From NCBI RefSeq assembly GCF_964355755.1, contig NC_092672.1:4154001-4218000 (forward strand): a stretch of DNA of 64,000 nt. The letters run 5' to 3'. Of this stretch, positions 1,385 through 63,490 are shown one piece after another (position 1 is the first letter of the stretch; every line of letters starts with the position of its first letter). A model generated the notes under the pieces. It was not told the origin of the DNA. It saw only the letters and a list, made by a program, of their open reading frames with translations, and searched no databases. Position numbers and translations under genes: made by a program. The stretch is from Antedon mediterranea. Its lineage: Eukaryota; Echinodermata; Crinoidea; Comatulida; Antedonidae.

Positions 1385-2538
1385 AAATCCTGGCGAAAGT
1401 TAGTTATTCAGATTGGATGTTCAAGCTATATGTTGAAGAAATGTCGAACCAGCACTCGGAGCAGGCTCTCTCATGGAGAAAATTATACCTCAGCCGGGCT
1501 AAACTAAAAGCTTCTAGTAGAACATCAGCTCTTCTAGCTGGCTTCGCCATGGTATGTTTTTGAAAATAAAACATATACTACTAACAGTTTAATTGTATTA
1601 TATTTAAACAATTAATAAATAAACAATTTTTACTAGATTTGATTTTATTTGGTTTCAACATAAGATTACAAGACAATCTGAATACAAACATTTTACAAGT
1701 ACTGTAAATACATAAATAAGAAACCAAGGATAGCCAAGCCCATAAAGAAAAATCAACTTGATTCCAATGGGGTCCTTTAAAAACAGCAAAGACAATCACA
1801 ACTAACAGCATAAACATACAAATCAAACGCGCATGACAATAATATATTTTAATGGCAGATGATATACAGTTTAAAAATATGAGACAATCGTCAATAGCCA
1901 GTGGATGACCTACTGTACAGCATGAACCTAGATTGGAATATAGTATTTGTTATAATGGCATAAGACCTGGCATAAGTGCTTTTTAACAGCATGTTTAAAA
2001 ATATTTTTTCATTCTATTTTATTATTAAATTTCTATTTTTTAGGTGGCGTTGGTTGAAATAAGCCTCCCTGTTGGTCTACCGACAGCTCTCATTATGTGT
2101 TTCAGCGTCATCACTATTCTACTCATAGTGACACATCTGTTTGCGCTACTCGTCAGTACGTGTATACTACCAAACATCGAAGCTGTCAGTAACATTGAAA
2201 ACATTAACGCTGTCAAAGAATCGCCTCACGAGAGTATGAGCACGTACATTGAACTATCGTGGATTGCTTCTACCGCCCTCGGTATCTTGCTATTCCTTTT
2301 AGAGATTATGGTTTTAATCTGGATTCAATTTTATGAAAACTACAAATACGCAGGGTATGTGGCGACTGCGCTACTAATACCCGCCTTGTTGGCTGTTTGC
2401 GTTTTTGCATATCATTTTTATCATAAGCTAGTCACGCATAAATACAAAAGTTATAATACGACGATTGATGAACTGGATGGACTCGCAACCGAGTTAGAAA
2501 ACAATACAGAAATGCATGGTGTTACACTAGAAGTGTAA
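1385..2538 (+). CDS. ORAI: ORAI calcium release-activated calcium channel (5' end incomplete)
   Basis: Pore subunit of the store-operated (CRAC) calcium channel of the plasma membrane, gated by STIM. Two exons are seen: about 1385-1551, and 2044-2538 ending in TAA. The join is ATG|GTATGT to TTTTTTAG|GTG, in phase. Exon 1 encodes YSDW, then [20 protein letters not shown] and the start of TM1; exon 2 continues VALVE, where the Glu corresponds to the selectivity-filter Glu of the family. Next come [20 protein letters not shown] (TM2 and loop), KESPHE, TM3 with a conserved acidic residue (LFLLEI), TM4, and a short C-terminal tail that could form the STIM-binding coiled coil. The first in-frame ATG is at 1417, but the conserved YSDW lies upstream of it. 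I therefore infer an upstream exon joined at the acceptor near 1383-1384. Without that exon the visible protein is about 209-218 aa, shorter than vertebrate ORAI1. The long loop 3-4 insert of vertebrate ORAI1 is absent. Confidence 0.93.
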
Positions 2539-8700: not shown

Positions 8701-11700
8701 ATCCTTAAAAAAAATCACACATATTGCCTATTTAAAATACAATAAACAAATTACCTTATTGAGTTAGAAGATGTATTTCACTGAGCTAACTATGTATGTT
8801 TACTTTTTTTATTTTATTTCATACACATCCAAAAGCGAGCACAAACTCGCCGGATAACTACTTTATAATTTATCGTGCTTATAGACTAAGTCTCATTTGA
8901 GGCTAAGGGAGCGGAGTTGAAAGAGTCATGAGTTATAACCCTGGCACTAGTTCAGGATTGAACCCGTACATTGGGATTGGAAGGCAACCATGTTAACCAC
9001 CAAGATACAGCTCCACTACAATTACACTTACTTTTATGTCATGTTCTCTACCTTCAGTAAATCCCTGAGCTAACTATGTATGCATACTTTTTTAATTACA
9101 CTTACTTTGATGTGCTTTCTACATTCATTAAATCCCTGAGCTAACTATGTATGCATACTTTTTTAATTACACTTACTTTGATGTGCTTTCTACATTCATT
9201 AAATCCCTGAGCTAACTGTGTCACAATGTCTTTGTGATCATCTAGCAATCCTTTAACTAAACTACAGTATTCCTCTTCAACTTTAAAGTCTTCAATCTGA
9301 AATAAAAATAGAATATTTTATTATTACCATAATACTCTAAATCAAAAGCCTCGATCGCACTGGACTTAATTTGGTCAAATTAATCGAGTCGCCGGCTAAA
9401 GTGACCAGAAAAAGTCCAATCCGAACACTCGCCACAGGGTTTGTCCAAGTTACAGTTACCGACCACTGCCTGCCCAGTAGAACTGAAGATGGTCTTGGTA
9501 AAAGTAACAATCCAAATTAAATTTAAAAATTGCCAGACCTCTACAAGTCTTCCCAAAATCTAATCCCTTCCAAAGATCAAATTCCATTTCTAAGATTTAA
9601 TCTCTTTTCAATATTTAAGCTTGTTAGGGTTTTTTGTGATAATTTACACTACCTTAATTTTTTTAGAATTGTTAAACTTTATGATTTGTAAGCTGGATCT
9701 AGGCCAGACAGCTCATAAGGCTGTAGATGTTTACATTATGCCCTAATAAAACCGTCCTTAAATGTTCATGTTATAGTTTACTAAACTAAAGCTTTGGGAT
9801 TTAAAATAGAAATTAACTCAAACATGACGCATTATATTTCATCATTCATGCATACTATCATTTTTCTAAAATGACCTCCGTTTTATTTATTTTGACAGAT
9901 AAAATGACCTGGGATACACTCCTAATAAACTACTAATATTTACAAGGAAGGGAAGTCTTCTGTCACTGCCAAGTTTATCAGCGACACGACACACGACTGG
10001 TTTAAACCAGTTTCTATTACACTTGCCCCCACATCCTGTGCAATCAAATGAACAGTGTAATTTTTAAATTAGCTAGTACTGTAGTTTATTGATAGGTTGA
10101 GATTATCTTAAGCTCTGTCTACACTATCAAACTTCATGTGACAACAAATGTCATACCACCACCATATTTGGGCATATCACCACCATATTTGGGCATATCA
10201 CCACCATATTTGGGCATATCACTACTATATTTGGGCACACCTTTTTTGTCAAAATAATTTGATAGTGTAGAGAGAGCTTTAGATATATATGTGTAGGGAC
10301 ATATTTAGTTAAAAATTAATGGGTATTATATTATTCTATGCGAGTTTAGACGTTGATTTCCACATTGTATAAATATCTGGATAATTTCATAAATAAGATC
10401 ATGGCAAAGATGTTCATAATTTTGTTGATTATTATCATGTTTTTTAACATCCATTTATTAACAATATATTCCAAAACGCATTTCTTCCCCTGCTATGGCT
10501 ACCGCATATCAGCTAAAACATTACCTGTGGAAACTCGGACAGCAGGTGGAAAGACCGAATGTAGAGTTCGTGTACACTGAGGATCGTGGGATTGCATCCA
10601 ATGATGAACGGAAGATTTCGAAATTCAGCAATGCGATGGGCAACCCTAACAGGCAGCTCCTTGTGGAGATATTGGGCACTACGCTGTGAAGGGAAAGAAA
10701 GTTACTGTTAAGCTCTGTCTCCACTATCAAACGTTATGTGACAACAAAATGTGATGTGCCTTATGGACATGATGATGTCATATCACTACCATATTTGGGA
10801 ATATCACTACCATATTTGTGTACATCACACTTTCTTTTGTCAAATTAGTTGATAGTGTAGACAGAGCTTTATATTAGCACAACACATTCTAATTAAAAAT
10901 AGAGTCGCTATCCAATAAAATTTGAACCATACCATGAAAGCCTTAGTGGTCTAATGGTAGGGTGTCTGCATATCAAGCAGAAGGTTCTGGGTTCAAATCA
11001 GCCTTTGCTAATTCTCACATATATTATACAAATTATCCTCATTCAACTCATAAACATTCATTATTTCTATCACAGAATATATCTACAGGTAAACAGCTGT
11101 TATTCTTGATAAATAATATGTTAGTTAATAATTAAGTCTGAATTGACTGTTGTATTTGGAAACCAAATGAATTCATTGCGTTTAATTAAATATGCATATT
11201 TAGTGTTTTGTATTTACAAAACCAGAACTACATTTACCAGTAGATGGTTGCCATCTGGTGATTTACCCGTGTACAAGAGTGTTGCCGGTGTTAGTCGAAC
11301 TGAAGGCTGAAAAATAAAAACAACGAAAAAACAATTACTCGAAACCCTGATGAAAGCTATGCCACAGTAGTTACATTTACAATCCTGTTGGTTCAGTACC
11401 CGCTACTTATTTGGCCTCAAACCCCTAGCCATCAGCACAAGCTTGGTGGTCTAGAGGTATGAACATCAGGCTAGCGATCTGGAGGTTCGAATCCCCTTGT
11501 TCTTTTAATGGGAAACTGTCCCCTATAGTGGTGGCCCCTGAATAGGGGTTGGATGTAATGTTCAAATATATTACTTCTTGTTATTTTCATGGGAAAAGTT
11601 CCCTAAAGTGGTGGCCCCTGAATAGGGGTTAGATGTAGTGTTAAAATAAATTGTTCTTTTCATAAGAAAATGTTCCTTAATAGTGTCCCAAAGGAGTGAA

Positions 11701-16917: not shown

Positions 16918-18499
16918 TTAAAAGCCTTCCTGTTTTTCTTTGACGCAAACCTAGTAAACATAAAACAAATTTCATTCAGGTTTGACAGATACAAAAATTA
17001 ATTGTAAAACTACTATATATGTGTAATAGTTAATAGCTCACCCACCAATCATAATAATATTTTTTTTTGTATAGCGCTTAACCAGAATAAATTTTCTGTA
17101 AAGCACTACAACCACAAGGCTCGAACTAGGTGGAGATTACGTCATTTAATATGCTATACGAAAGAGCAACTGTTTGAAGATGTCAATAGAGTTGGCATTC
17201 TAGATTGATTGTGGAAGAGTTTTCCAGAATAAGTTTCAGTGACAAACCTTAAACCTCTCTTCCAAGAGAGAGACCTCACTAATAAGATCAGTGATGGCAT
17301 TGGTAAAAGCCTCTTGTGGGCTGTAGTCATTGCTTGTTTGTACTCGCAAAACAAACTTGTGTTCTAGAGGATGAGGAACCTTGTAACCAGCAAACAGTAC
17401 CTGTGGGTCTTTTAGTAGCTGTCTTAAAAATACAAACATAATACATTTATATGAAAGGACATCATTTGACACTGAAATTATTGTACCATTGGAACACTCG
17501 TAACAAAAGGGACATCCTATTTCGAGGATGTTTCCTCATGAAACGAACAATGGGAAATGTTTTATCACTACATCCAACCCCTACTCAGGGCACAGCCACT
17601 ATTCCGGCCACTTCCTTCTTTGGAGAGGGGGACGACACCTTTTATTAGGGGGAGGGGCAACCTTATTAGGGGAGGGGGAGGGGGGGGGGAGAAAGACACT
17701 TTGTTGGGTATTAATAATAGGGGTTCTATTCATACTACATAGTTCATATTCTATTATTTACAGAGCAGCATAACTCTGTAAAGTATTGTGTTATTCTGTA
17801 TTAAGTATTTCATTTAACCAGTGACAATTAATAATTTCACTCTTCCCTGTTTTAACTTACTGTCGGAGCATGTTGCCTAAGGTATGATCTTCTTTGTTGA
17901 CTGTGAATATTGCAGCATTTGGTACTTTGGTGTCCTTTTCAATTGTTATCCTGCCAAAAATAATCATTTTTCAATATTACAATACATACTAGTTTTACTA
18001 CTTAATAATATACAGTAGTAGGTCTATGTACTAAAAACAAATATTTAATAAATATAGTTATTATAGAGCCTAGCTAGCCTTGTTTGGTCTACCTAAACAT
18101 TCTTAAAAAAAGTTAATATAAATAATAATATTTATTTATATTAACAAATAGACCTAGGCTAGTAGTAGGTCAAAATAGCCTAGGTCTAGTCTATAGACTG
18201 TTAAACTAGATTATCTAGCCTTTAGTAAGTAGTTACAGTTGACACAAAAAAAACTTTAAAATATTCCTAGGCCCTAGGCCGAATCTACATGCAGATTTAT
18301 GGCAACGCAACCGCGTCCGTGCCGTGATTGATGTGAATGTCTGGCTTGTTGTTTAGACCTTTCACTAGCCTAGGCCTAGCTTCAAACCAATTGACGAGTC
18401 CTTAACTAACTAGAATTTTAATAAATGTACTGTTTGAAATACTCACTTTTTTTCTCCTTCAAACAGAATAAACGACTCAAATGTTGGAGGTGCATTCAT
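16918..18499 (-). CDS. POLR2J: RNA polymerase II subunit RPB11
   Basis: Small subunit that dimerises with RPB3 during assembly of RNA polymerase II in the nucleus. Four coding exons on the minus strand: 18499-18447, 17950-17861, 17422-17248 and 16950-16918. They give 351 nt, or 116 aa plus stop; the human protein is 117 aa. Recognisable segments are [18 protein letters not shown], the [20 protein letters not shown] alpha-like dimerisation core, [20 protein letters not shown], and [18 protein letters not shown] followed by LLEERFK. The last exon is tiny and encodes only [10 protein letters not shown] and the stop; it was found from the acceptor CTAG|GTT and frame continuity. For exon 3 the acceptor AAG|ACAG was chosen because it keeps the frame and the family length (LRQQLLKDPQ). 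The gene is divergent from the SnoaL-like gene. Confidence 0.96.
18060..18420. other. CTAG/AGGCCTA-rich tract in POLR2J intron 1
   Basis: Low-complexity sequence with repeated 'cctaggc', 'ctagc' and 'aggcctag' words, within 400 bp downstream of the first exon. Similar tracts lie next to the P2X first exon (46775-46845) and upstream of aspartoacylase (51175-51420). Confidence 0.6.
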
Positions 18500-23986: not shown

Positions 23987-26900
23987 TCAAGGTAAATAAT
24001 TATAAAAATGCCATTCCATATTAACGACTAGGTCTGTTTCGTCTACAAACTCCTTTCCGATTACGCAATGATTTGACTTCCAATTGTAGGCGTATCCGTT
24101 GCATAGTATATATCTGTTGCACATGATTGCGCAGTCGTACATGGTTCTTACGGCTGTAGTCTCCGTAACGTGTTCACTGGCGAAAGTCGCTAGTTTGAGG
24201 AATCTGAAAATGCTGCCTTCTTCTTCAGAATACAGTTTGCTGATCAACGACGCTGCAGTTTGTTTCTGAATTGTTTCTAGAATAAAATAAAACAACTTAG
24301 GATGCCACAAAAAAGCAGGCGTTTATATATTTTACAATATTACAATGGAAACTGATTCACGATTTAAGGTATTGTGTTACAGTCGATAAAAAAATGTAAA
24401 ACCACACTTATTATGCTAAAGTTAAATTTGTCTCAATTATTGAACGAAAGAGATGGTATACGGTACCTTCGGAAGGAATTGTAAGAGCTGCCATCAGTTC
24501 TTTTCGAGTCATCGCTCGGTCGTAGAAGTGCATGTTCCTAACATTCCCCGATGCACCACCGCTAAACCCAATATCTACGCCGCTCCACGACATATCCGGT
24601 GTCTGAAACATTACCTTGCTGACAAAGAACCCATTCCTCCACAAAGACACAGTACCACCACCATCCTGAATAATGGCGATGGATGTCCAGACATCTGGTT
24701 TGAAGACCACACCGCGGAGCTTTCTAGCATGGTTACTAAAAGTTACTTCTATCTCGGACGCGTAGACTTGAGTTCCTGAATTTGTTTGTGTAATGTTAAT
24801 ATGTCCAGCAAAGAGTATTTCACCAACCGAGTTAGGCTCTGGTTTAATATCAAACATCAGAGTGCAGATTCCATCTTGAAATAACTGGCCGCGGTTTGGA
24901 ATTGAGATACTGCTGGGTATGCCATCGACGGGTAAGAGATCTGCGAATGCCACTCCAGTCGTGCTAATAAAATGAACTCTTGAGGCGCTGTAATCATAAT
25001 CCCTAACACCAGACAGATCATGGATCGTGTAGATTGAGTTCAATGGCCAAAAACCACGTGGGTTTAGTGGTAGGTCGTTTTGGTCAGCTTCTATAAAACA
25101 GTTTCATAACCATGTACAATGTATTATTTTACAGAAGTAATAACACAACAGAATCAATGATAGCAGCGTGCAAGCCATCAGACGTAATGTTAACGTGACG
25201 CGTTAGACCGGTTCCTACTGAACGTTAAACGAACAATTTCAAATCAACTTGTGTCAATTTTGCCCATTACTTTGCTTTGAAATTGTGTACAGTAGAAGAA
25301 TAGTGTATATCATGGAAAAATAAGCCTCTTTTTATCCATTGTCTAATATTAAAGCATCACTTCATACTACACAACGATTAAACTGTTTTTATTTATGTCA
25401 TTTGATACTCCCCAAAACAATTTAAATATAGTTCTAAGGATGTTTGTCTTTTGTAGTAAACGTGTATATTTATAGTATCTATAAAAATGTATATATTTAT
25501 CGTCGTTCGTTATCGTTCCAGTATATAAACAGGCCATAATTATATTAGAGTAGTGAAATATGAAACACAAAAAAATGATAGGCCTACCTTCCTCAGAGGA
25601 ATAGACAAAAACTTCACATATTGCAAGATTTCTATCTGACACTGACGTAATAAACACGTACGCACCGTTGATTGGTGGAGAACATAATACGTCAACTATC
25701 GCGCTAGAATTATACTGCTCAAAAGAAATAGTTTGACCACATTGAGTATTCTGAGCAGAATCAACTCCGTCATTGCCAATCAGAACTTTGGAATCATGCA
25801 AACTGTATTGCACCGGTGCTGTAAAAAATAAATGTAAATACAGAGAACTCATATTAAGGGGACACCTTCAGGACCCAAAAGAGGGTCTCCTGAATCGTAT
25901 CCGGATATTCACCCCCTGGACATTTACCCCCGGAAAACTACCCCCCGGACAACCACCACCTGGACCACTACCCCCTTAGGACAACTACCCCTTTAGGACA
26001 ACTACCCCCGGACAAATACCCCCCGGACAACTACCCCCTTAGGACAACTACCCCCTGGACAACTACCCCCCGGACAATTACCCCCGGACAATTACCCCCC
26101 CCCCCCCCGGACAATTACCCCCCCCCCCCCGGGTAATTACCCCGACAACTACCTCTGACACAATACTCCCCGTAGGACAACTACTTCCTGGACAATACTC
26201 CGAGGGCAAATAATCTTTTAGGACAACTACCTCCGTAGGACAACTAACCCCTGGACAACTACCCCCGGACAATTACCCCCTAGGAACAATTACCCCTGAC
26301 AATTACCCCCGGAGAATTCCCCCCCCCGGGTAATTACCCCGCGGACAACTGCCTCTGACACAATACTCCCCGTAGGACAACTACCTCCTGGACCTGGACA
26401 ATACTCCGAGGGTAAATAATCTTTTAGGACAACTACCTCCGTAGGACAACTAACCCCTGGACAACTACCACCCAGAAAACTATCCCTTTAGAACAACTAC
26501 CCCCCGAACGGACAACTACCACCCAGACCATTCAACAACCTGACTCTGCAACAACAGCGTATAATAGGAATTAATAACTATATTTTAATTCGTTACTTTG
26601 ACGAATTACTATTCATTATTGTAAACAAAAGTAAAAGATTGAACATAAATATAGCCTGGTATAAACTGAAGATTGTCACACATGATCATAGGATAGTCGA
26701 ACGTATTATATAGTACTCCCTGTATTTACTGTAAAGACTGGGTTCGCTAATAATAATAATAATTTTTGCGTCAGGACAATGCTTCGATAACCACTGGTCT
26801 TAAAAGAATTAATTTTTGTCTCAAATTTGTCATTTGTATTTTTGTACACTTGAAGAATAATATCACTTTTGATATTTGACCTCAATGTTCACTCACCGAA

Positions 26901-38670: not shown

Positions 38671-39115
38671 ATATGTTTAAATGTAGTTGTGATTACAATC
38701 ATCCTCATGTTAAACTGAAAACTAAGGAAATTTGGATTAGGTCATTTACGGACCCACAGCAGCAGTGCAGCGTCTACCATGATCACTGCACGAGGAGACT
38801 TACCACCTACACTTTTCAAATAGTGTACCAAGCAAATTCAACAAATTTATGTTCATCTGAAGGACGAGGCAATGAGAATAAAGAATTTTCACACAATCAA
38901 TATGGCACAGACATAGACAGGCTCGAATCCATGCCTGTCAAATGTTAGTTTGATCCCTTACCAATATGTCATATCACTTTCTGAAAGGTCTATACAGCAT
39001 CAGATTTTTTAACGACATTTTTAGTATAATATATTTAGCTTTTGTGTCTAAATACAATAATATAGTCATCAAATAATTGTATCATATAAACAGTTTTATA
39101 TTTATAATTTTCATG

Positions 39116-39325
39116 CATGTCACAGCCGTTCTATTGCATGTCACAGCCGTTCTATTGCATGTCACAGCCGTTCTATTGCATGTCACAGCCGTTCTATTGC
39201 ATGTCACAGCCGTTCTATTGCATGTCACAGCCGTTCTATTGCATGTCACAGCCGTTCTATTGCATGTCACAGCCGTTCTATTGCATGTCACAGCCGTTTT
39301 ATTGCATGTCACAGCCGTTCTATTG
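39116..39325. repeat. 21-bp satellite, exactly 10 copies
   Basis: Ten uninterrupted copies of catgtcacagccgttctatt+g with a single substitution in the whole array. The 21-bp length keeps frames open (7-residue peptide repeats on both strands), but there is no start context or conserved flank to suggest a gene. Confidence 0.97.
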
Positions 39326-40119
39326 CTAATAAAAAATAAATTCTACTAAAGCTGCAAAAAGCGATGAGAAAGTAAACCAGTAATAATTATTTATGACCCA
39401 ATTGTGGAATAAACCTTGTCTTGGTTTTGTTTTATATTGTAACCAGAGTTTGATCAAACCAAATAATTGTCTATATTTTGTATTATTTTCAATGTCATTT
39501 GTAGTTTGTTGTGTGAAATCTATTTTTGAATTGTAAATAAGACATTTTTGTGTACAGCGCTTTGGGCTTTGGCAAAGGAGCTATAGAAATCACTATATAT
39601 AAAACAAATTAAGCAAAATCAAGGTTATAAAGTGTGTATACAAAAGTGACTGTTACACACGCTATATAGAGGGCTTCTACAATCAAAGTCAGTCAACGGT
39701 AAAAATACATTTAAGAACAAAAAATAACGCGACAAAGGTATGCCGTAAAACCTGGAATGAAAACGCAGACAACTGAAAAGAGTGACATGATTTTCTTTGT
39801 GATTTTGGTGCAAGAGGGCGCTCTACCAGCTAAAATAAAAGTATGAGCTATTATCTATTTTGACAGACTATACTAATATTCAAAGTTAGCGTTTAAAAAT
39901 GACTGGATCAACGTGTAAGCGGCTTCTATTCAAGGTTTTACGGCACGAGTGAAGAATGACATTTGACCTACATTGCATTATGATGAAACAGGTTGAGGAG
40001 GTTGAGATTTCGATGCATCATGAATGCGATGATATGGCTGTAAAAAGATGAACGCGTAATACATAGCATGAACAAACAATGAATTTGCTCAACTATCGCA
40101 AAGAACAAATAAATGAGAC

Positions 40120-44000: not shown

Positions 44001-47000
44001 TTGTTTTTGACGTTATCAAATTTTTATTTTCTTTTAAGTTCTGTTATTTATTTGTTAATTTTGTAGCATAAGTTAGTTAAGATAAAAGGTACCAAGCTTG
44101 ATTAGCTTCGGCTATACCTTGGCTACCTGTTGTATTAAATTGTTTTTTTGTTTGATACAATAAAGAAGAGAAAGAAAGTTTGACAACAAAAAAGTGATTT
44201 TTTTGTAAAGTTTGATAGTGTAGACAGAAATCTATCTATGTTTGTGAAACTTTGCATGATGTCTGAACCAAGTTCTTACACAAATTATTTATGTAATTAT
44301 TACTTACAGAGGTGGTACGTCGTATTCTACTGGACACCACGCCTCAATTTCGCATGTTTTTGTTGTTTTACCATCTGGGTACGTATATGTAACGCAATTG
44401 CCCGTTTCTATACCTAAAAAACAAAGACAGTATCTTGATATTAACTATGCAATCGAAAAATGAATAATTTAGTTATACTGTAGTGTAGTTTAGTTAATTC
44501 TTAAGCTCTGTCTACACTATCAAACTTTATGCGATAACTAAATTTGTCCATATGGACATGATGATGTAGTATCACCACCATATTTGGGCATATCGCTACC
44601 ATATTTGGGCACATCACAGTTCACACTTTGTTTGTCAAAAAGAGTGTAGACAGAGCTTAACATACAGTAAAATTAAATCCAAGAAGTAGCAAATATACAG
44701 GAAATTAATAGTCATTTTATTTATTTTTTGGTAGTTTTGCAACATTAACCAGAATTCATTTATATCCTGGTACTTTACATTTAGTATGAATGTTGTAAGA
44801 TTTAATGACTTTATAAATATTAAATAAATATTTTCTATTACTTCCTATTAAGAGTAAACCCATTAGCAGACTGTGAAACTAGATCAATAATAAATCAAAT
44901 CTGTTTATATCCCTGCTGTGTGTGTAAATTAAACAAATCACATTTTATCTTATCTTTCACTTCTGCATAATATTAACCTTTGACCTGAAAAGCTCACAAT
45001 CTCTTGTTGAGAGTGCGATAAATATAGACTTACCATTTCCGTTTACTACAGGTTGACCTTTGCGACAAACATTCGGGTCATCTTCACAGTTAACATTGAC
45101 CATAAATGGGTCCTAAACAATAAAACCACATTAGTAAATAATCATAATGTAAGCTTTGATAGCCTATGATATTACTGTCATGCATTTCTGTCTTACCAGA
45201 GGAAACACAGAAATAAAAGTACTGTATACATTTAATTTTATTAAAGATGTATTGTCCCTCAAAAACATGAAAAATGATTAATTTAATCAGACTTTGAATA
45301 TGTTATTTTGAAAAAAAAAGGGAAAAAAAATGTTTTCACTTATAAAATGACAAAATAAATAGTTAAATTCAACCAAAAACCCATTGGATGCTAGCCAATT
45401 TGACCATTTTTTTGCTTAAAATTAGTTTTTTCAGGTAAATACATTTTTTTTCGATCCAATTTTTTGTCAAAGTGGATAACTATTATGTTACATTAAAATG
45501 GCATATATTCAAAAAAAATTTTTTCAGGGGGACAATACATCTTTAACTAAGAAACTAACTAACTAAGAATCCAATGAAAATATTGTTTAACTTACCTCTG
45601 CACAAACTCCCCTGGTCTGTTCAGGGGTTATAACCATGTTTGTCATAACAAAAAAGGCATTATCCATCTGAAAAATAAAGAAACAAATTATTATTCTACA
45701 ATTGCTATTCAAACCAAGAGTGAGATCCCTAATTAGATACTTTACCAGTACATAGTTAAAGCCTTGTCCACACTATCAAACTTCATGTGACAAAGTGTGA
45801 TGTGCCCAAATATGGTAGTGATATGTAACACTGTGGTCAAGGGTCAAATCTTGTCCACAAGCACACAGATATGTTAGAAGAGAAATCTCTCTTCCAAACA
45901 CATTTAAACCAAGGCATCACCAAAGTTTTGTTTTATGTCAATCCAAATGTAAAATTGGGTGGGAGGAGCAATACACTTTCGGCTTGTAGTAGTGTCTAAG
46001 GCTGTGTTTGTGTTTCTGCAAATTATACAGTAGGTTAATTGTGTAAAAGTGTCAGTCATTACCGAGCAACCAGTAGCCCAATCGCAACGCAACAATTTGC
46101 CCTTCAGTTTAAAAGTTAAAAATTATCGCATTTATTGGATAATTATCTGATTTGAATTTCTGCGCAGAATTAGAAAGAAACTTTATCGGTTAATTATCGA
46201 TTATTTGAAACACGGCTTTAGTAATATTAATATTAAAGTGTCTCATTAATATTAATATTTTTTTAATCGGGAGAAATTGCATTTAGCGGTAGATTATTTT
46301 AAATATCGGTAAACTCCTGTGATTATCGGGAGAGTGTGGAGGTCTGTAAAATGAATATTTTTATTAAAATACTATTTATTAGCAATACCATAGGAGGAAT
46401 GACATAGTCTACTGGATCCCAGATTCTGTTATATGGACCAACATCTTCTATCGAGAGATTTGGGTTGCCAGTAATGTTTGTGTAAGCAACTCCTTTTAAC
46501 TTGGTTGTTACTGCACTAACAACTTCATCTTTCTCCTGGTAACCCTTTTGCAGAATAATGGCCCATCTGTAAAACAAAAAATAAAGATTTAGGCTAGCAT
46601 GAAAGAAGTCAATATAGGATTTTTTTAAATAATAAAACAAATATCACAAATTAATAATAAATCATTTGTTTGGGTAATATTAGAGCATGGTCCATGATTA
46701 GAGTCAGAGTAGGCAAAGTGGGCCGAAACGTCCCTGATTTTTAAAATACCTAGGTTTATATGGCTATGTCACACGCATCATCACTGCAGACTGGCCTACT
46801 CTTAACCGGCTAGGCTAGCCTACCCTACTACTACTAGGCATTTTACTTACACGACAACATAGACGATAACACCGATTTGAATCAAACGATTTATAAAGCC
46901 GACTTTCTTGCTTTTTATGTGAACAACTTTAGGTGTATCATATTCAAGCGCGGAGTCTACAGCTATCCTACTCCAAGAGCTTACAGTTTCCTTAAACGGC

Positions 47001-47002: not shown

Positions 47003-48027
47003 TTTTAGACTCTAAAGCTAGGCCAGGCTTGGAGAGGCTCCTGTGGGCTGCTCTGCTGGCTGGTTGATTGGCTCGCTTCTCCTCTCAGGCTCGGACGGAC
47101 GGAAGCTCTTTCGGATCAGTTGTTGTGGTGGCTGCTCGTGACGCTGTTATTCCTATTCAGCAGAGCGTCAATTCGACGATCGAGCATTCTCTACTTCTAC
47201 GGAGCGCCATTTATGTCTTTATTTACTTCCGAAATAGAATAGTACTACGGTAACTGGTTCAGTGGACCAAATTTAGCACCAGTGGAGCACAATTCAGATA
47301 TAAAATAGAAATAAGTCACTAATTTTAATATCTTTTCGTATGTTAATACACTGTCCTCAAGTGCACCCAATTTGGAGCCAGTGGAGCACAGTGATATTAT
47401 AAATAGAAATAAGTCACTGAATGTTCTATCTTTTCGTATTTTAATAACTGTGCTCAAGTGGACCCAATTTGGCGTCAGTGGAGCAAAGTGATATAAAATA
47501 GAAATAAGTCACTGAATGTTAATATCTTTTCGTATTTTAATACACTGTGCTCAAGTGGACCCAATTTGGCGTCAGTGGAGCACAGTGATATAAAATAGAA
47601 ATAAGTAACTGAAGTTTAATATCTTTCGTATTTTAATACAATGTACTCATGTGTACCCAATTTGGCACCAGGCGAGCACAGTGATATAAAATAGAAATAA
47701 TTCACGGAATTTTAATATATTTTCGTATACACTGTGCTCAAGTGGACCCAACTTGGAGCCAGTGGAGCACAGTGATATAAAATAGAAATAAGTCACTGAA
47801 TTTTAATATCTTTTCGTATTAAGCATATTTGAATACCTACCGGTATGGTACCATACATGTTCGACAATACAGTGTCACATATCTCTATTAAAAAAAACCC
47901 CAATATTTAAATTAAAAAAAATATCCGTCGAGGTTGACTGAAAAGCTGATAATAGTCTATTTATACGTGTATTACGTAATTGATCATTACGTCATAAATA
48001 TCCTATTAACCTTGCTAAAACCAAAAC

Positions 48028-48099: not shown

Positions 48100-49783
48100 G
48101 TGGAATAGAGTTAAGGCTATGCGAGCCACTGTGTTTGGGGTTCACAGATGCATACGTCCCCCTTTCCACCACACATCATGAGGCGACAACATCAATGCAT
48201 CTGGTGGAAACGACCCCATTTTGTAAAAATACACTATAATGTGTAACGGTAGAATTATAATTATAATGTAAAAGATTAACAAACGTGAATGTATCTCTCT
48301 CATCATGTTTGGTATGCCGTTCCTGTTATACAAATTAGTTTGTGCAGGTGCATTATGGTAAAGATGGTATTGTTAGTCATTCGCGGTCAACGCGCCCCAC
48401 TGTTAAATTTTGATTTTGTTAATCAATGTTGCAACATTGGTAGCGAAATGTCCGATTCTTCATAGTACAGTAGTTGGTGTGTATGGCCGCACCGCCCCAG
48501 AATAAACATGTTTTAAACAGATAGTTTGTCTCCGATGGTTTTTGTATGAGGTTAATGGAGAGTGGAATAAGATCAAATATAGAACATTTGCAAAGATGCC
48601 GATTTCCAGACCAATTTCGAAGCTTAGACTAATTCTGCCGCCGGGCTAGGCCATAGGCATATACGAAGTCGAGTTTTTAAAGTAGAAAACCCCACCTAAA
48701 ATGTTGAAGTGCGCATCTGGATAGTTGCAATTTTAACATTATCATAATTATCATAGGTGACTATGTATAGTAATAAGTGGATGGGCTAGTACTGGAGACT
48801 TAATATTTAATTTTATATTTCAATGAATAGGTGCACTTTCCCAGTTCCGGGGACAAGCTCATATATTGTCCTGGTGAGTTTGTTTCATTCAAATCATGTA
48901 ACGCCATTTTTTCGGGCGGGAACCTACTGTATAGAGCTCTTTTTTTTTTCAAAATTGACTTTGCTCAGCCCGAAGCATGGTGGGGTACTGAAGATTCTTA
49001 TGCATGTTGTTTGAAAACATACTAGATGTCATTTTCGGGTACCTTGTAGCTCTATTTTAAACTGTTTGGTATGCGTGCGTTGTTATGCAAATGAGTCTGT
49101 GCAGGTGCATTATGGTAAAGATGGTATGTTAGTCATTCGCGGTCAACACGCCACACTGTTAAATTTTGATGCTGTTATTTATTTACATTAGAAGATTTTT
49201 CAAATCATGTAAATAAAATATTTTCCGGGCGGGAAGCTAGCAGTTCCTCTCGTTTAGTTTGCAAAAGTAATCTCGAAACGAACTCCATGTGGAAAAGAAG
49301 CCCACCCAAGAGTACTAAAAATGAAGGAGCACATGGGCTTCTCTTCGAGGTTTTATGGCAGTCTATTTAATGGAAAATAATGCCATGCAACTTTGTTTCT
49401 GATTTAAAAAAAAGTTCCACTTGACATTTACAATCCTCAAAATATCTCTATTTCAAAATAAAAGAAAAACAATATTCATTATTTTCCATTTAAAAAAAAA
49501 TCCACTGGCGCCAAATTGGGTCCACTTGAGCACAGTATATTAACATACGAAAAGATTAAAACTTGAGTGACTTTATTTCTATTTTATATCACTGCTCCCC
49601 TGGTACCAAATTGTGTCCACTTGAGCACAGTGTTTTATACGAAAAGATATTAAAATTTAGTGACTTTATTTCTATTTTATATCACTGTGCTCCACTTGGG
49701 CCAAATTGGGTCACCACTTGAGCACATTGTATTAACATACGAAAAGATATTAAAATTTAGTGACTTTATTTCTATTTTATTTT

Positions 49784-51616: not shown

Positions 51617-54600
51617 ATGGCAACCGCAAAGCGTGTGCAAAATGTGCTATTACTCGGAGGAACCCATGGCAATGAGATGTCTGGTGTATATGTAGCTAAA
51701 CAATTTCTAAAAAACCCAGCGCAAATTACAAAAGATTCATTTAAAACTACAGTTTTGATGGGAAATCCGATGGCTGTGGAAAAATGCACAAGATATATTG
51801 ATGTAGACTTAAATCGACAGTTTACTAAAGAGAATTTAAAGTAGGATATTATATACTTATTATATACTATTTTACCGATACTATTTAAAGATCATTATGA
51901 TGGGTAATGAATACAAACTTTGTTGAGAAGCACTTGCTTCCAGTGGCGTAACACAGAGGCATGAGGCTCCTGGTTTAGGGCGTGGTCTCAAGCGTTTTTA
52001 GCTATTTTCAACATATTTTAATGCCTGTTTTTTCCTGTGGGCACTGCTCAGGGACCCCCATAAGGTCCGGGACCCCTGGGTTTAGCCAGTGAGCACTCAT
52101 AGTCGTTACGCTACTATTAGCTTCCCTCCTCCATCAAACACAAATGTAGATGAATTAATAATCATCATAATGTTTATTTGGTTTCTAACAATTAATAAGT
52201 AGTGAGAAACATATCTGCATAAATAAAACATAATGGTTTTTCCGAGACATTTCAAACTATTATTAAATCAACATAATATCTCACTTTATATTTGTTTCCC
52301 TTTCAGTGGTACCAATCCCAAAACAAATTATGAAGTCAAAAGAGTAAGAGAAATGTGGGAGACTTTATCAACACATTCTACAAATCCTGACGTTGTTTTA
52401 GATATGCACAATACTACAGCAAACATGGGCAATTGTTTTATAATTAAAAACCAAAATCAGATTTTTGACTTGCATCTTATTAACTATGTAGTGAAAAAGG
52501 CTACATTTTCTGCCCCTGCTCATATCCTATGCATTAGCAGTCCAAACCATGCATACAGCTGTAGCAGAGACATTGCACCAAATGGCTTGGGTAAGATATT
52601 AAGGCATTCAAAATTATATACTATAATGCACAGGGTTTTAAACTTTGTGCCCTAATTCTGTTGAACCGTGCAGTGGATTGAAATGTCAGTTTAAACATAC
52701 ATTTTTTTTGTTCTAATTAATACAGTAGAATAGTATTATGGGATGCCTTCTGGACCCAACAAAGTGTCCCTTTTAATTGGGGTTGGGTGTACAAATAATA
52801 TTACCCATGTTTGTTTTATGGAAAGTGTTCCCTTAATAAAGTGTTCATCAAATAGCTGTGTCACACTCAGGAAGGATTCTACTGTATGTGAAATCATCAT
52901 TCTTTTTTTATTTTTGCCTTCCATACCTGACCTGTTTTACTGGCTGATTGACCTTCATGACCTATTTATTAATTCCTTTTTCTTCAGCGTTAGAGCTAGG
53001 CCCGCAACCTCAGGGTATACTACTTTTTTTATTTTTGCCTTCCATACCTGACCTGTTTTACTGGCTGATTGACCTTCATGACCTATTTATTAATTCCTTT
53101 TTCTTCAGCGTTAGAGCTAGGCCCGCAACCTCAGGGTGTACTACTTTTTTTATTTTTGCCTTCCATACCTGACCTGTTTTACTGGCTGATTGACCTTCAT
53201 GACCTATTTATTAATTCCTTTTTCTTCAGCGTTAGAGCTAGGCCCGCAACCTCAGGGTGTACTACTTTTTTTATTTTTGCCTTCCATACCTGACCTGTTT
53301 TACTGGCTGATTGACCTTCATGACCTATTTATTAATTCCTTTTTCGTCAGCGTTAGAGCTAGGCCCGCAACCTCAGGGTATACTACTTTTTTTATTTTTG
53401 CCTTCCATACCTGACCTGTTTTACTGGCTGATTGACCTTCATGACCTATTTATTAATTCCTTTTTCTTCAGCGTTAGAGCTAGGCCCGCAACCTCAGGGT
53501 GTACTACTTTTTTTATTTTTGCCTTCCATACCTGACCTGGTTTACTGGCTGATTGACCTTCATGACCTATTTATTAATTCCTTTTTCTTCAGTGTTAGAG
53601 CTAGGCCCGCAACCTCAGGGTGTACTACTTTTTTTATTTTTGCCTTCCATACCTGACCTGGTTTACTGGCTGATTGACCTTCATGACCTATTTATTAATT
53701 CCTTTTTCTTCAGCGTTAGAGCTAGGCCCGCAACCTCAGGGTGTACTACTTTTTTTATTTTTGCCTTCCATACCTGACCTGTTTTACTGGCTGATTGACC
53801 TTCATGACCTATTTATTAATTCCTTTTTCTTCAGCGTTAGAGCTAGGCCCGCAACCTCAGGGTGTACTACTTTTTTTATTTTTGCCTTCCATACCTGACC
53901 TGTTTTACTGGCTGATTGACCTTCATGACCTATTTATTAATTCCTTTTTCGTCAGCGTTAGAGCTAGGCCCGCAACCTCAGGGTATACTACTTTTTTTAT
54001 TTTTGCCTTCCATACCTGACCTGTTTTACTGGCTGATTGACCTTCATGACCTATTTATTAATTCCTTTTTCTTCAGCGTTAGAGCTAGGCCCGCAACCTC
54101 AGGGTGTACTACTTTTTTTATTTTTGCCTTCCATACCTGACCTGGTTTACTGGCTGATTGACCTTCATGACCTATTTATTAATTCCTTTTTCTTCAGTGT
54201 TAGAGCTAGGCCCGCAACCTCAGGGTGTACTACTTTTTTTATTTTTGCCTTCCATACCTGACCTGGTTTACTGGCTGATTGACCTTCATGACCTATTTAT
54301 TAATTCCTTTTTCTTCAGCGTTAGAGCTAGGCCCGCAACCTCAGGGTGTACTACTTTTTTTATTTTTGCCTTCCATACCTGACCTGTTTTACTGGCTGAT
54401 TGACCTTCATGACCTATTTATTAATTCCTTTTTCTTCAGCGTTAGAGCTAGGCCCGCAACCTCAGGGTGTACTACTTTTTTTATTTTTGCCTTCCATACC
54501 TGACCTGTTTTACTGGCTGATTGACCTTCATGACCTATTTATTAATTCCTTTTTCGTCAGCGTTAGAGCTAGGCCCGCAACCTCAGGGTATACTACTTTT

Positions 54601-57412
54601 TTTATTTTTGCCTTCCATACCTGACCTGTTTTACTGGCTGATTGACCTTCATGACCTATTTATTAATTCCTTTTTCTTCAGCGTTAGAGCTAGGCCCGCA
54701 ACCTCAGGGTGTACTACTTTTTTTATTTTTGCCTTCCATACCTGACCTGGTTTACTGGCTGATTGACCTTCATGACCTATTTATTAATTCCTTTTTCTTC
54801 AGTGTTAGAGCTAGGCCCGCAACCTCAGGGTGTACTACTTTTTTTATTTTTGCCTTCCATACCTGACCTGGTTTACTGGCTGATTGACCTTCATGACCTA
54901 TTTATTAATTCCTTTTTCTTCAGCGTTAGAGCTAGGCCCGCAACCTCAGGGTGTACTACTTTTTTTATTTTTGCCTTCCATACCTGACCTGGTTTACTGG
55001 CTGATTGACCTTCATGACCTATTTATTAATTCCTTTTTCTTCAGTGTTAGAGCTAGGCCCGCAACCTCAGGGTGTACTACTTTTTTTATTTTTGCCTTCC
55101 ATACCTGACCTGGTTTACTGGCTGATTGACCTTCATAACCTATTTATTAATTCCTTTTTCTTCAGTGTTAGAGCTAGGCCCGCAACCTCAGGGTGTACTA
55201 CTTTTTTTATTTTTGCCTTCCATACCTGACCTGGTTTACTGGCTGATTGACCTTCATGACCTATTTATTAATTCCTTTTTCTTCAGCGTTAGAGCTAGGC
55301 CCGCAACCTCAGGGTGTACTACTTTTTTTATTTTTGCCTTCCATACCTGACCTGTTTTACTGGCTGATTGACCTTCATGACCTATTTATTAATTCCTTTT
55401 TCTTCAGCGTTAGAGCTAGGCCCGCAACCTCAGGGTGTACTACTTTTTTTATTTTTGCCTTCCATACCTGACCTGTTTTACTGGCTGATTGACCTTCATG
55501 ACCTATTTATTAATTCCTTTTTCGTCAGCGTTAGAGCTAGGCCCGCAACCTCAGGGTATACTACTTTTTTTATTTTTGCCTTCCATACCTGACCTGTTTT
55601 ACTGGCTGATTGACCTTCATGACCTATTTATTAATTCCTTTTTCTTCAGCGTTAGAGCTAGGCCCGCAACCTCAGGGTGTACTACTTTTTTTATTTTTGC
55701 CTTCCATACCTGACCTGGTTTACTGGCTGATTGACCTTCATGACCTATTTATTAATTCCTTTTTCTTCAGTGTTAGAGCTAGGCCCGCAACCTCAGGGTG
55801 TACTACTTTTTTTATTTTTGCCTTCCATACCTGACCTGGTTTACTGGCTGATTGACCTTCATGACCTATTTATTAATTCCTTTTTCTTCAGCGTTAGAGC
55901 TAGGCCCGCAACCTCAGGGTGTACTACTTTTTTTATTTTTGCCTTCCATACCTGACCTGTTTTACTGGCTGATTGACCTTCATGACCTATTTATTAATTC
56001 CTTTTTCTTCAGCGTTAGAGCTAGGCCCGCAACCTCAGGGTGTACTACTTTTTTTATTTTTGCCTTCCATACCTGACCTGTTTTACTGGCTGATTGACCT
56101 TCATGACCTATTTATTAATTCCTTTTTCGTCAGCGTTAGAGCTAGGCCCGCAACCTCAGGGTATACTACTTTTTTTATTTTTGCCTTCCATACCTGACCT
56201 GTTTTACTGGCTGATTGACCTTCATGACCTATTTATTAATTCCTTTTTCTTCAGCGTTAGAGCTAGGCCCGCAACCTCAGGGTGTACTACTTTTTTTATT
56301 TTTGCCTTCCATACCTGACCTGGTTTACTGGCTGATTGACCTTCATGACCTATTTATTAATTCCTTTTTCTTCAGTGTTAGAGCTAGGCCCGCAACCTCA
56401 GGGTGTACTACTTTTTTTATTTTTGCCTTCCATACCTGACCTGGTTTACTGGCTGATTGACCTTCATGACCTATTTATTAATTCCTTTTTCTTCAGCGTT
56501 AGAGCTAGGCCCGCAACCTCAGGGTGTACTACTTTTTTTATTTTTGCCTTCCATACCTGACCTGGTTTACTGGCTGATTGACCTTCATGACCTATTTATT
56601 AATTCCTTTTTCTTCAGTGTTAGAGCTAGGCCCGCAACCTCAGGGTGTACTACTTTTTTTATTTTTGCCTTCCATACCTGACCTGGTTTACTGGCTGATT
56701 GACCTTCATAACCTATTTATTAATTCCTTTTTCTTCAGTGTTAGAGCTAGGCCCGCAACCTCAGGGTGTACTACTTTTTTTATTTTTGCCTTCCATACCT
56801 GACCTGGTTTACTGGCTGATTGACCTTCATGACCTATTTATTAATTCCTTTTTCTTCAGTGTTAGAGCTAGGCCCGCAACCTCAGGGTGTACTACTTTTT
56901 TTATTTTTGCCTTCCATACCTGACCTGGTTTACTGGCTGATTGACCTTCATAACCTATTTATTAATTCCTTTTTCTTCAGTGTTAGAGCTAGGCCCGCAA
57001 CCTCAGGGTGTACTACTTTTTTTATTTTTGCCTTCCATACCTGACCTGGTTTACTGGCTGATTGACCTTCATGACCTATTTATTAATTCCTTTTTCTTCA
57101 GCGTTAGAGCTAGGCCCGCAACCTCAGGGTGTACTACTTGCTGAAATGTACCAAAGAATGCAAGAACTTGTCATCAATTCTATGATTTTTATAGAAGACT
57201 TTAACTCAGGTTTTTTTTTCATTTTTTATTTCTTATTTTATTAATCACAATTTTTATGTATTTTATGCTACATGGGTGTATTACTGTATTATTAATTATT
57301 CGTGATAATTAGACGTACCATTTATTTTGTATCACCAGAATATATATATATATACAGTATTTCTTTTACAAGAATATTTCTTAAGCATGGAAAAATAAAC
57401 CCATGGGGGAAA

Positions 57413-57443
<31 letters not shown>

Positions 57444-58182
57444 TATAAATTAAACAAAACTAATAATATAATATTTTGGTTTTGCTGTTCTATGTAATTC
57501 TTTTATGTTTTTTTGCACAACTTTTCATCAATATAATTTAACAACAAAAAAAAGATTTTTAATTTATTTTTTTTATCATAGGTGTCATCTCAGACTCATT
57601 TCAAACAGATGCCTACAACATAACGGATAAAGTAGACTTCCCACGAGACGCTGATGGTAATATAACAGCCATGATACACCCACGTTTACAGGTATATTTA
57701 ATGAAAATCATTGAATAAAACTACTGTAAACATATCTATATAATCTTGTATTTTTTAATTGCCTACACTACCAAACTTTATGTGACAAAAAAATGTGATG
57801 CGCCCATATATGGACATGATGATGTCATATCACTATCATATTTGGGCATATCACTACCACATTTGGGCACATCACACTTTTTTTGTCAAACTAGTTTGAT
57901 AGTGTAGACAGAGCTTAAGAAATAAAATGTGAATGTTTTTTACACTAAAAATATGCAAAAATTAAACATTAATTTAAAATTTCATTTTAGGACAGAGACT
58001 GGGAAGCAGTCAACAAGGGTGACCCCTTATTTCTGACCTTTGATGGTAAGACGATTACGTATGATAAACAAGAGACGAGATATCCAGTTTTTATAAATGA
58101 AGCCTCATATTATGAAAAAAATCTTGCTTTCTGGCTAACACGTAAAGAAACATTAAATATACCATCATTGAAAATGGAGTGA
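51617..58182 (+). CDS. ASPA: Aspartoacylase (N-acyl-aspartate amidohydrolase)
   Basis: Zinc enzyme releasing acetate from N-acetyl-aspartate (or the related ACY3 activity). Coding exons are 51617-51840, 52307-52590, 57102-57209, 57582-57691 and 57991-58182. They give 918 nt, or 305 aa, all in phase; human ASPA is 313 aa. The first coding exon follows an acceptor (TTTTTTTTCAG at 51592-51602), so a 5' UTR exon exists upstream. Zinc ligands are H17 and E20 in GGTHGNE and H109 in DMHNTT; DVDLNRQF supplies the substrate-binding Arg. The catalytic Glu is E172 in LELGPQPQG, encoded at the very start of exon 3. DGNITAMIHPRLQDRDW and NEASYYEKNLAF complete the C-terminal domain. Intron 2 ends in a 35-copy tandem array of the exon 3 acceptor plus its first 36 nt (52903-57137); only the last copy leads into the full exon. 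Aspartoacylase and aminoacylase-3 cannot be separated from this alone. Confidence 0.95.
51941..52125. mobile_element. hAT-like non-autonomous element (CAGTGGCGTA family)
   Basis: Starts CAGTGGCGTAACACAG and ends 'gttacgctact', an imperfect inverted terminus. Interior 'ggtccgggacccctgggttt' and 'agccagtgagcactca' match 7069-7237 inverted. In ASPA intron 1. Confidence 0.55.
52733..52862. repeat. Dispersed repeat family E
   Basis: 'gccttctggacccaacaaag', 'tgtcccttttaattggggtt' and 'gaaagtgttccctt'. It lies about 40 bp before the 121-bp array. Confidence 0.6.
52903..57137 (+). repeat. 35 x 121-bp array of splice acceptor plus ASPA exon 3 start
   Basis: Each unit is 85 bp of intron-like sequence ending in a strong acceptor (TAATTCCTTTTTCTTCAG), then 36 nt identical or nearly so to the start of exon 3 (CG TTA GAG CTA GGC CCG CAA...). 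Exon-like segments begin at 52988 and every 121 bp to 57102, so 35 copies with no indel. Only the last is followed by the rest of the exon and its donor. Variation is confined to a few sites: TTC[T/G]TCAG, CAG[C/T]G, GGGT[G/A]TAC, CTG[T/G]TTTAC and CAT[G/A]ACC. Every unit also carries TGACCTTCATGACCT or its one-base variant. Confidence 0.98.
57757..57918. mobile_element. MITE family A, copy 12
   Basis: Eroded left end 'attgcctacactaccaaact'; intact right end GATAGTGTAGACAGAGCTTA. In ASPA intron 4. Confidence 0.85.
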
Positions 58183-60013: not shown

Positions 60014-62330
60014 GTGTTACCGGTAAAATGTCAACAGAAATCATTGCCGCTTTCAACTATTTGATTTGTCACGTATGATTCACGGCCATCAAATTACAAA
60101 CTCTGCTGATATCTCATTTTAACGTCATAAATTGCATTGTAAATTAATGAAATGAGAAAGCCAATGATGCTATAAAACACCCTTTGTTTAAATAATGGTT
60201 TTAAATAATCCAATATATCAATTTGTGAGGGAAATGTTGTAAAAACGATCAGTGTCACTAAACGGAACTGATCCTGTAGCCGATTGTCGGTACTGTATCA
60301 AACCTGTCCAGTACACTAGGCGCATTTTGTGATACAGCATCACATGTGTTTTTATTTCATAATGTAACACCTGGTATCATAACCTAACTTAACCTAATGA
60401 TGCAGGCACGGGGCTATTATAATAGTATAGCTACATGATACAGGCACCACGTGTGATACACATACAATCCCGTTTTACGAATTACGAAATAGTGTCACAT
60501 TATGGAGATAGGCCTACAACACTAAACATTGTGTGCACAAATGAAAGATAGCACATTTAGCTTTGTCTTCCATGCTATTTTATGCTTTATTCAGCTTTTG
60601 TCAATTCACCTTTAATACAACCACGGGATGAACATTAAGCCTACATTCATGATAGACTGAATTTAATTATGTTCATGGCGGAACTCCAATTTTCCAATAA
60701 TTATAAATTACATTTTACCAAGAAAATACATAATACATGCTGCTAATTAAGTCTTATTTATTTCAACCTGCTATTCCATAATTAACGAGACTATGATATC
60801 ATAATATAGTGAGGAGAGCGGTTGTCGAAATTACATAATATATTTTATAGGCAAGAATGTTTTAGTCTTTTTTATATGAGACATAGAAAATGTATCCATG
60901 AACAATGAAGAGCAGTGATTTGCTGATGAAATCACGCTTCAAACTCGATTGTTATAGGATGGTTAGGCGTTGTCTACACCATCAAACTAAGTGTGATGTG
61001 TCCAAATATGGCAGTGATATTCCCAAATACGGTAGTGATATGACATCATCATGTCCATATATAGACACATCACGTTTTTTGTCACATATAGTTTGAGCAT
61101 GTGGACAGAACTTTAAGTAAGTTTTCTCTTCTCGTCATGCCTAAAACTCATATTGTCACATTCAAGGTGTACCGTAAACATCTCTATGTTAAGCTGTGTT
61201 CACACGAAGTCAAAATCCCGTCCTGTGAGTAAATGTGTGTGTAGGCTGCCTTTACACCGGATTCCGTACAAAACGTACGTGTAATCGGTGATCGGGAAAA
61301 TGAATATACTCTAGAATTTTCTCCGGTTCACCGGGTACCGATACGGTCTCAGTGTGAACGCATAGCTATCCTAACTTTTTCTCCATGGTGTAACTATACC
61401 TTATGAACATTTTATATATAAAAAAATACAGGTGACTTATTCTATAATTTTATTCATCTTTTAAAATTATTCTAAATGACCAACTTCAAAACATTACTTT
61501 GTTCGTATTTTTCTCGAGGATTCACGTCACTGGATAAAAAAATAAAAAAATAGGCCTACAGCGATAGCAATATAGGCCAAGATGACGTCACACGACCTTG
61601 ACATTTACGTAAGACGTAATGACGTATCACATTCGAATGGGTATACACGAATTATGATTAGAAATGTTTTATGCCTTTAAATTAAAATATTAATAATTTT
61701 CTCGTTTCCATACTAATTTATACCATTATTCAATTTGTGTAATGAATCATACACGACATGGCGACAGGAGAACGTACTATGTTCCAATTACTCTCTATAT
61801 CCGTAATCACAGTCTTGTTATCTTTCGGCGTTTTGAATTATGAATTGATACATTATAGTATTTATACATAATATCAATAATGACATCAAGATGACGTCAT
61901 TCATCTTAGTAAACGTAAATAAGGTCAAATGATTACATACTATTTTAAGATAATGTATTACATTATAAGCATGTAATAATCCACAATGCATGCTTAAATC
62001 AGTGTTTTCGTTAGTGATGATTTTCTTAGACAATAAACTGTTTACAACATAAATCATAAATTATTACCGAATTATACTATTTTATAGACAATGACGTAAG
62101 TAAAAATAATACTTTTAAAGTCTAATTTGATGAGATAGTAATCAATAAATCGCTCGTTACAGATTCAAGATTATTTCCAAGGAGAAACATGCACATAACC
62201 ATAGTGCTCATCTGTGTTCGTGTAAACTGTCATCATACATGATGGTAATCTCTTTTAAATCTACGTTCAGACGACGGAAGAATTAGTCTAGACTGAATCA
62301 TAAAGTCGGGTGTAAATAATGGCAGCTGGA
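60014..62330. other. Intergenic, no gene recognised
   Basis: AT-rich. At 61190-61390 a weak inverted pair ('gtgttcacacg', 'tttacaccggattc', then 'ctccggttcaccgg', 'cagtgtgaacgca') suggests another decayed hairpin element. MITE A copy 13 lies inside (listed separately). Confidence 0.4.
60963..61115. mobile_element. MITE family A, copy 13
   Basis: 'taggcgttgtctacaccatc' at the left and 'gcatgtggacagaactttaa' at the right; 'catatatagacacatcacg' core. Confidence 0.8.
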
Positions 62331-63119: not shown

Positions 63120-63490
63120 ATCCTTCGCTGTCAACCTCTCATTGTTCATTGTCACCATCATCAATCGACAGCAACATTATCCCATTCATTCAATTACCAT
63201 CTCATTCATAGTCATCATCAACAATCGACAGCAACATTATCCCATTCATTCAATTACCATCTCATTCATAGTCATCATCAACAATCGTTAGCAACATTAT
63301 CCCATTCTTTCAATTACCATCTCATTCATAGTCATCATCAACAATCGACAGCAACATTATCCCATTCTTTCAATTACCATCTCATTCATTGTCATCATCA
63401 ACAATCGACAGCAACATTATCCCATTCTTTCAATTACCATCTCATTCATTGTCATCATCAACAATCGACGGCAACATTATCCCATTCATC
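63120..63490. repeat. 60-bp minisatellite, 6 copies
   Basis: Period exactly 60 bp: 'caatcgacagcaacattatc', 'ccattcattcaattaccatc', 'tcattcatagtcatcatcaa'. The multiple-of-three length creates an open frame rich in His and Ser that I do not regard as a gene. Confidence 0.95.

Follow-up and report, generated by a model that had tools for sequence, protein, structure and literature searches.

The window, a stretch of 64,000 nucleotides from Antedon mediterranea, carries an aspartoacylase (ASPA) gene with five exons that, joined by splicing, form an open reading frame of 305 codons and a stop (51617-58182, spliced translation). Its second intron consists largely of a tandem array that runs across the boundary into exon 3, and the features of the locus are as follows.

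51617..51840, plus strand: ASPA coding exon 1 from the ATG, donor AAA|GTAGGA (spliced translation aligned to human ASPA)
52307..52590, plus strand: ASPA exon 2, strong donor TGG|GTAAGA (human ASPA alignment and donor score)
52591..57101, plus strand: ASPA intron 2, 4,511 nt when copy 35 serves as acceptor; the part before the first acceptor measures about 397 nt and the rest is array
52902..57139, plus strand: tandem array, 35 x 121 bp, with CTT at both ends (TRF and unit alignment)
52988..53014, plus strand: 27-nt segment reaching from the AG to a donor-like word (GGTATAC/GGTGTAC), the first of 35 such segments and a hypothetical in-frame microexon (A/V LELGPQPQ)
57017..57137, plus strand: copy 35, the sole copy running into the real exon
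57102..57209, plus strand: ASPA exon 3, 108 nt, with the conserved Glu in LELGPQPQ; non-consensus donor CAG|GTTTTTTTTT (CAG|GTTTTT)
57582..57691, plus strand: ASPA exon 4, 110 nt, donor CAG|GTATAT
57991..58182, plus strand: ASPA exon 5 with the stop codon

GC content is low, at 31-39% (about 34%), and domain searches placed pieces of further genes in the window.

2044-2535, plus strand: Orai piece
17239-17535, minus strand: POLR2J-like RNA polymerase subunit piece
23990-25103, minus strand: laminin-G/PAN-domain protein piece
46326-46643, minus strand: P2X receptor piece

The spliced protein matches human ASPA over residues 5-303 (E about 2e-77) and has complete catalytic and C-terminal domains, together with the conserved GPQPQG motif and its Glu; the Pfam domains found in it are PF24827 (E 2.5e-37) and PF04952 (E 1.2e-23). 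A protein search of the genome with ASPA matched these five exons only, and ASPA therefore appears to be a single intact gene. A pseudogene was rejected, the open reading frame being intact and the genome protein search having given no paralogue. The human exons at the place of exons 3 and 4 are, we presume, also 108 and 110 nt long, and these sizes would fit the view that copy 35 holds the ancestral acceptor.

The array comprises 35 head-to-tail units of 121 bp at 52903-57137, or 52902-57139 when the end homology is counted, and Tandem Repeats Finder (TRF) delimits it at 52902-57139 with a period of 121, 35.0 copies, a 98% match and a score of 8182. Cut every 121 bp from 52903, the units are all of exactly this length (indels in 0/35 copies), and each consists of 85 nt of intron end and 36 nt of exon start (35/35). 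The intron part holds branch-like CTGAC/TTAAT words, which lie 15-57 nt from the AG in every unit, a pyrimidine tract and the intron-final AG at unit positions 84-85, present in all 35 copies, while the exon part encodes A/V-LELGPQPQGVLL, that is, a split first codon followed by the motif that holds the conserved Glu. The original prediction had described a 35-copy, 121-bp array lying across the exact exon 3 boundary of ASPA and including the catalytic Glu, and it is confirmed on each of these points by TRF, unit alignment and a whole-genome DNA search, in which the unit found 35 matches in the 354-Mb assembly (18 contigs), all of them in the array. Since no copy was found elsewhere in the genome, a dispersed satellite or mobile element was rejected. 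Chance origin was rejected too. Variation is confined to five of the 121 unit positions (33 G/T, 57 G/A, 81 T/G, 86 C/T and 115 G/A), and the copies fall into six unit types with a mean pairwise identity of 98.6%. Their order along the array, abbcbdebcbdebcbdedfebcbdebcbdedfdfe, shows strong periodicity at 5 and at 13 units; edge unit 1 is of a type found in no other copy, and the longest exact repeat inside the array measures 1,722 bp. The two ends of the array have CTT in common (left flank ATTCTT, right junction CTACTTGCTG).

As had been predicted, copy 35 alone continues into the full 108-nt exon, and the last acceptor is the only one to give the protein. When copies 1-3 and 30-35 were spliced to exon 2 and read on, full-length ASPA came from copy 35 only, and read-through from the upstream acceptors (copies 1-3 and 30-34) met a stop 54-61 codons past exon 2; the copies between 3 and 30 share this local sequence and, in stop-to-stop frames, this outcome. 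From the premature stop to the last exon junction there are between 175 nt (copy 34) and 4,147 nt (copy 1), a position that would normally trigger decay. If exon 3 is skipped, the frame is kept and a protein of 269 aa without the Glu results. Inclusion of the 27-nt segment that ends at the donor-like word likewise preserves the frame at every number of inclusions tested, up to 34.

The exon 2 donor meets 34 near-identical acceptors, the nearest 397 nt away, before it reaches copy 35. Scored with a matrix of general vertebrate frequencies, not fitted to Antedon mediterranea, the ASPA donors reach 7.05 (exon 2), 5.83 (exon 4), 4.93 (exon 1) and 1.53 bits (exon 3), and the array words AGG|GTGTAC and AGG|GTATAC reach 1.94 and 2.06 of 12.6 bits; pairing with the 5' end of U1 is similar as well, the exon 3 donor having -5.7 and the array words -5.9 and -5.1 kcal/mol. 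It had been argued that exon definition should favour the last copy, the others lacking a consensus donor. Copies 1-34 do lack one, but the real exon 3 donor is equally non-consensus (1.5 vs 1.9-2.1 bits on this matrix). Because it is no better than the array words, donor strength cannot discriminate copy 35, and by the matrix used the exclusive employment of that copy is not assured. The unique body of exon 3 may be what discriminates among the acceptors: copies 1-34 are without these 72 nt, and the purine-rich words GAAGAC, CAAGAA and GAAAT are absent from the duplicated 36 nt. Directly after the true exon 3 donor there is also a T-rich run that copies 1-34 do not have. A U-rich context is the route by which TIA-1-type proteins help weak donors, and the run resembles such a context. 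Recursive splicing was rejected, each acceptor being followed by CG or TG and not by GT, so that there is no ratchet site; RNA structure masking the decoys was likewise rejected, two-unit RNA folding no better than its shuffles (z = +1.35).

Exon-centred loci of two families were surveyed, 60 in number, with about 158 kb of sequence counted once and 79 exon matches; one gene, CCT eta, had three donor-spanning tandem arrays. The gene is on the minus strand of contig C4 (locus L037), and its arrays, at G000:C4:29705402-29707752, have the following places within the locus.

L037:2241-2578: 90 bp x 3.7 (about 4 copies), exon end GGTGGAG|GTAAGATATT
L037:1394-1575: 85 bp x 2.1, AATCG|GTAAGTT
L037:228-419: 87 bp x 2.2 plus a third partial copy, GTTGAA|GTAAGTAGAC

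One copy of the 90-bp array has TTAAG in place of GTAAG. Because the CCT eta arrays lie on the donor side and the ASPA array on the acceptor side, boundary-spanning repeats recur in this genome on both sides of exons.

Repeats of other kinds were also recorded. A myosin-head exon (profile 342-408) is present in at least 19 copies over 5.5 Mb (G000:C3:19618101-25122537), a large divergent myosin gene cluster, and two adjoining myosin-head matches at G000:C1:19159516-19159821 cover the same profile range, 107-152, and may be alternative exons or an internal duplication. Within the window, a 60-bp tandem repeat of 5.8 copies (63145-63489) lies in a 154-codon open frame of HHQQSTATLSHSFNYHLIHS repeats, whose coding status is hypothetical, and a 21-bp tandem repeat of 10.1 copies (39114-39326, 98%) leaves at least two frames open. 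Two further arrays, of about 97 bp at 47261-47820 and about 95 bp at 49501-49780, look like each other's reverse complement (GTGGACCCAATTTGGCGCCAGTGGA) and probably belong to a single family present in both orientations. A dispersed repeat with the 21-bp motif CATATCACYACCATATTTGGG occurs at 57826-57920, 44570-44617, 10152-10237, 60993-61042 and L037:841-960; in two places it adjoins TTTGTCAAACTAGTTTGATAGTGTAGACAGAG or a similar word, and it looks like a common mobile element.

Lancelet genes with tandemly repeated intron/exon boundaries have been described and the repeats named "mirages" (PMC3087553; PMC3902484), the genes being Adh3 and the globins BflGb6 and BflGb9 (PMC3087553), with TnC and PGBD5 added (PMC3902484). 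They are reported to be unstable in length and to leave regular splicing undisturbed (PMC3087553). The original prediction knew of no described counterpart to the ASPA array; lancelet mirages, which share its anatomy, are one (PMC3087553; PMC3902484). Both are minisatellite-like duplications over a boundary in which the splice signal is duplicated and the true boundary kept: in ASPA the unit crosses the intron/exon boundary in 35/35 copies, the AG is present in each, the authentic boundary stands at the end of the cluster in copy 35, and the six unit types in 5- and 13-unit blocks are the mark of concerted evolution within the cluster. Lancelet mirages affect 5' and 3' boundaries alike, and both types are found in the Antedon genome. 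The ASPA array differs from them in the gene affected, in the near-identity of its copies and in its higher-order blocks. It also has 35 copies, against 3-6 copies of 150-160 bp in the acceptor-side mirage of BflGb6, the one lancelet case compared for copy number (PMC3087553). The ASPA array is most likely a very long, young member of the known mirage repeats, and what is unusual about it is its copy number. The GFP family is expected in lancelets, and a search of the genome for it, run without a positive control, gave no match; the genome carrying the ASPA array is probably not that of a lancelet. Searches for the tunicate-type GH6 and for molluscan haemocyanin, also run without a positive control, gave no match either, nor did one for COX1.

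Duplicated boundaries are also known from the human CBS gene. Its 844ins68, the subject of a 2002 title by Romano et al., duplicates in tandem, a single time, the 3' splice site of an intron together with the beginning of the exon that follows, with one extra copy of 68 bp where ASPA has an array, and its splicing has been studied experimentally. The 31-bp VNTR of CBS is a multi-copy repeat across an exon-intron boundary which, unlike the ASPA array, lies on the donor side and has a short unit; a 2001 title by Lievers et al. links it to reduced enzyme activity. A duplicated intron-exon junction can also yield a new intron once a donor is activated (PMC4974935). There, as in ASPA, branch site, pyrimidine tract and AG come ready-made with the duplicated junction, but the new intron of that case arose with the activation of a cryptic GTAAG donor, whereas the ASPA array has created no strong donor. 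The best donor-like word per unit, at 1.9-2.1 bits of 12.6 on the vertebrate matrix, would argue against intron gain by tandem duplication in ASPA.

We consider it highly probable that the array is a boundary-spanning "mirage" minisatellite, that exon 2 is spliced to copy 35, and that the consequence is a longer intron and a normal protein. The first step would have been a 121-bp tandem duplication, its ends sharing 3 bp (CTT), that took in the last part of intron 2 and the opening 36 nt of exon 3; with the duplicate placed towards the intron, the original exon would have remained whole. Slippage or unequal exchange would then have added further copies, at a later stage as 5- and 13-unit blocks. 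Exon 2 would be joined to the last acceptor, the sole AG with the full exon body, purine-rich words such as GAAGAC and CAAGAA included, and a functional donor downstream. Products of copies 1-34, with their premature stops, would go to nonsense-mediated decay, and the net effect would be an intron 2 longer by about 4.1 kb, with mRNA perhaps slightly reduced. The array is most likely a young, unstable and near-neutral minisatellite.

A decoy, dosage or microexon role for the array is possible but has nothing in its favour beyond the anatomy; for the tuning and decoy functions that had been suggested, no evidence emerged. The 34 extra acceptors could titrate splicing factors or divert transcripts, such that array length would set the level of ASPA. 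The diverted products bear early stops, the acceptors are near-identical, and lancelet mirages differ in length between haplotypes (PMC3087553), all of which would suit such a regulator, but published mirages splice normally, and the AG in all copies carries no weight here, the chance of variation missing it being about 0.92 with five variable sites. Selection on the AG was rejected as an argument for this lack of power, and we regard regulation by copy number as unlikely. Quite unlikely is its fuller form, a length-polymorphic dosage switch in which copy number determines the loss of ASPA transcripts to products containing stops or 27-nt microexons, in a non-lancelet lineage where boundary-spanning minisatellites are common. 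The suggestion that the donor-like words generate microexons gained in one respect, since the 27-nt exon (AG to AGG|GTGTAC, with 94-nt introns between) is in frame, so that ASPA with several LELGPQPQ inserts would be read without stops at any inclusion number tested; the word equals the true exon 3 donor in score, and in copies 1-34 it stands directly before the T-rich beginning of the following unit. It lost in another, the word being weak in absolute terms (1.9 of 12.6 bits on the vertebrate matrix); the frame would be kept by accident one time in three, and the catalytic loop would probably be disrupted by such an insert. Repeated in-frame microexons are in our view most unlikely.

It is very unlikely that assembly inflated one or a few copies to 35. 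The 1,722-bp exact internal repeat would invite such an error, and a published mirage of a lancelet had been put together wrongly in a draft genome (PMC3087553), but the contig is of chromosome scale (39 Mb), modern long reads, if used, would span a 4.2-kb array, and the ordered variant units with their common 5- and 13-unit blocks look like the product of real unequal exchange. Judged from the sequence, this higher-order pattern and the variant units argue against simple assembly stutter.

The array is a natural test of how a spliceosome chooses among 35 near-identical acceptors of which only the last gives protein, and one in which donor strength does not obviously decide the choice. Mirages have been put forward as a source from which new introns may arise. 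If the host is indeed no lancelet, the array suggests that mirages of the lancelet type extend beyond a single clade.
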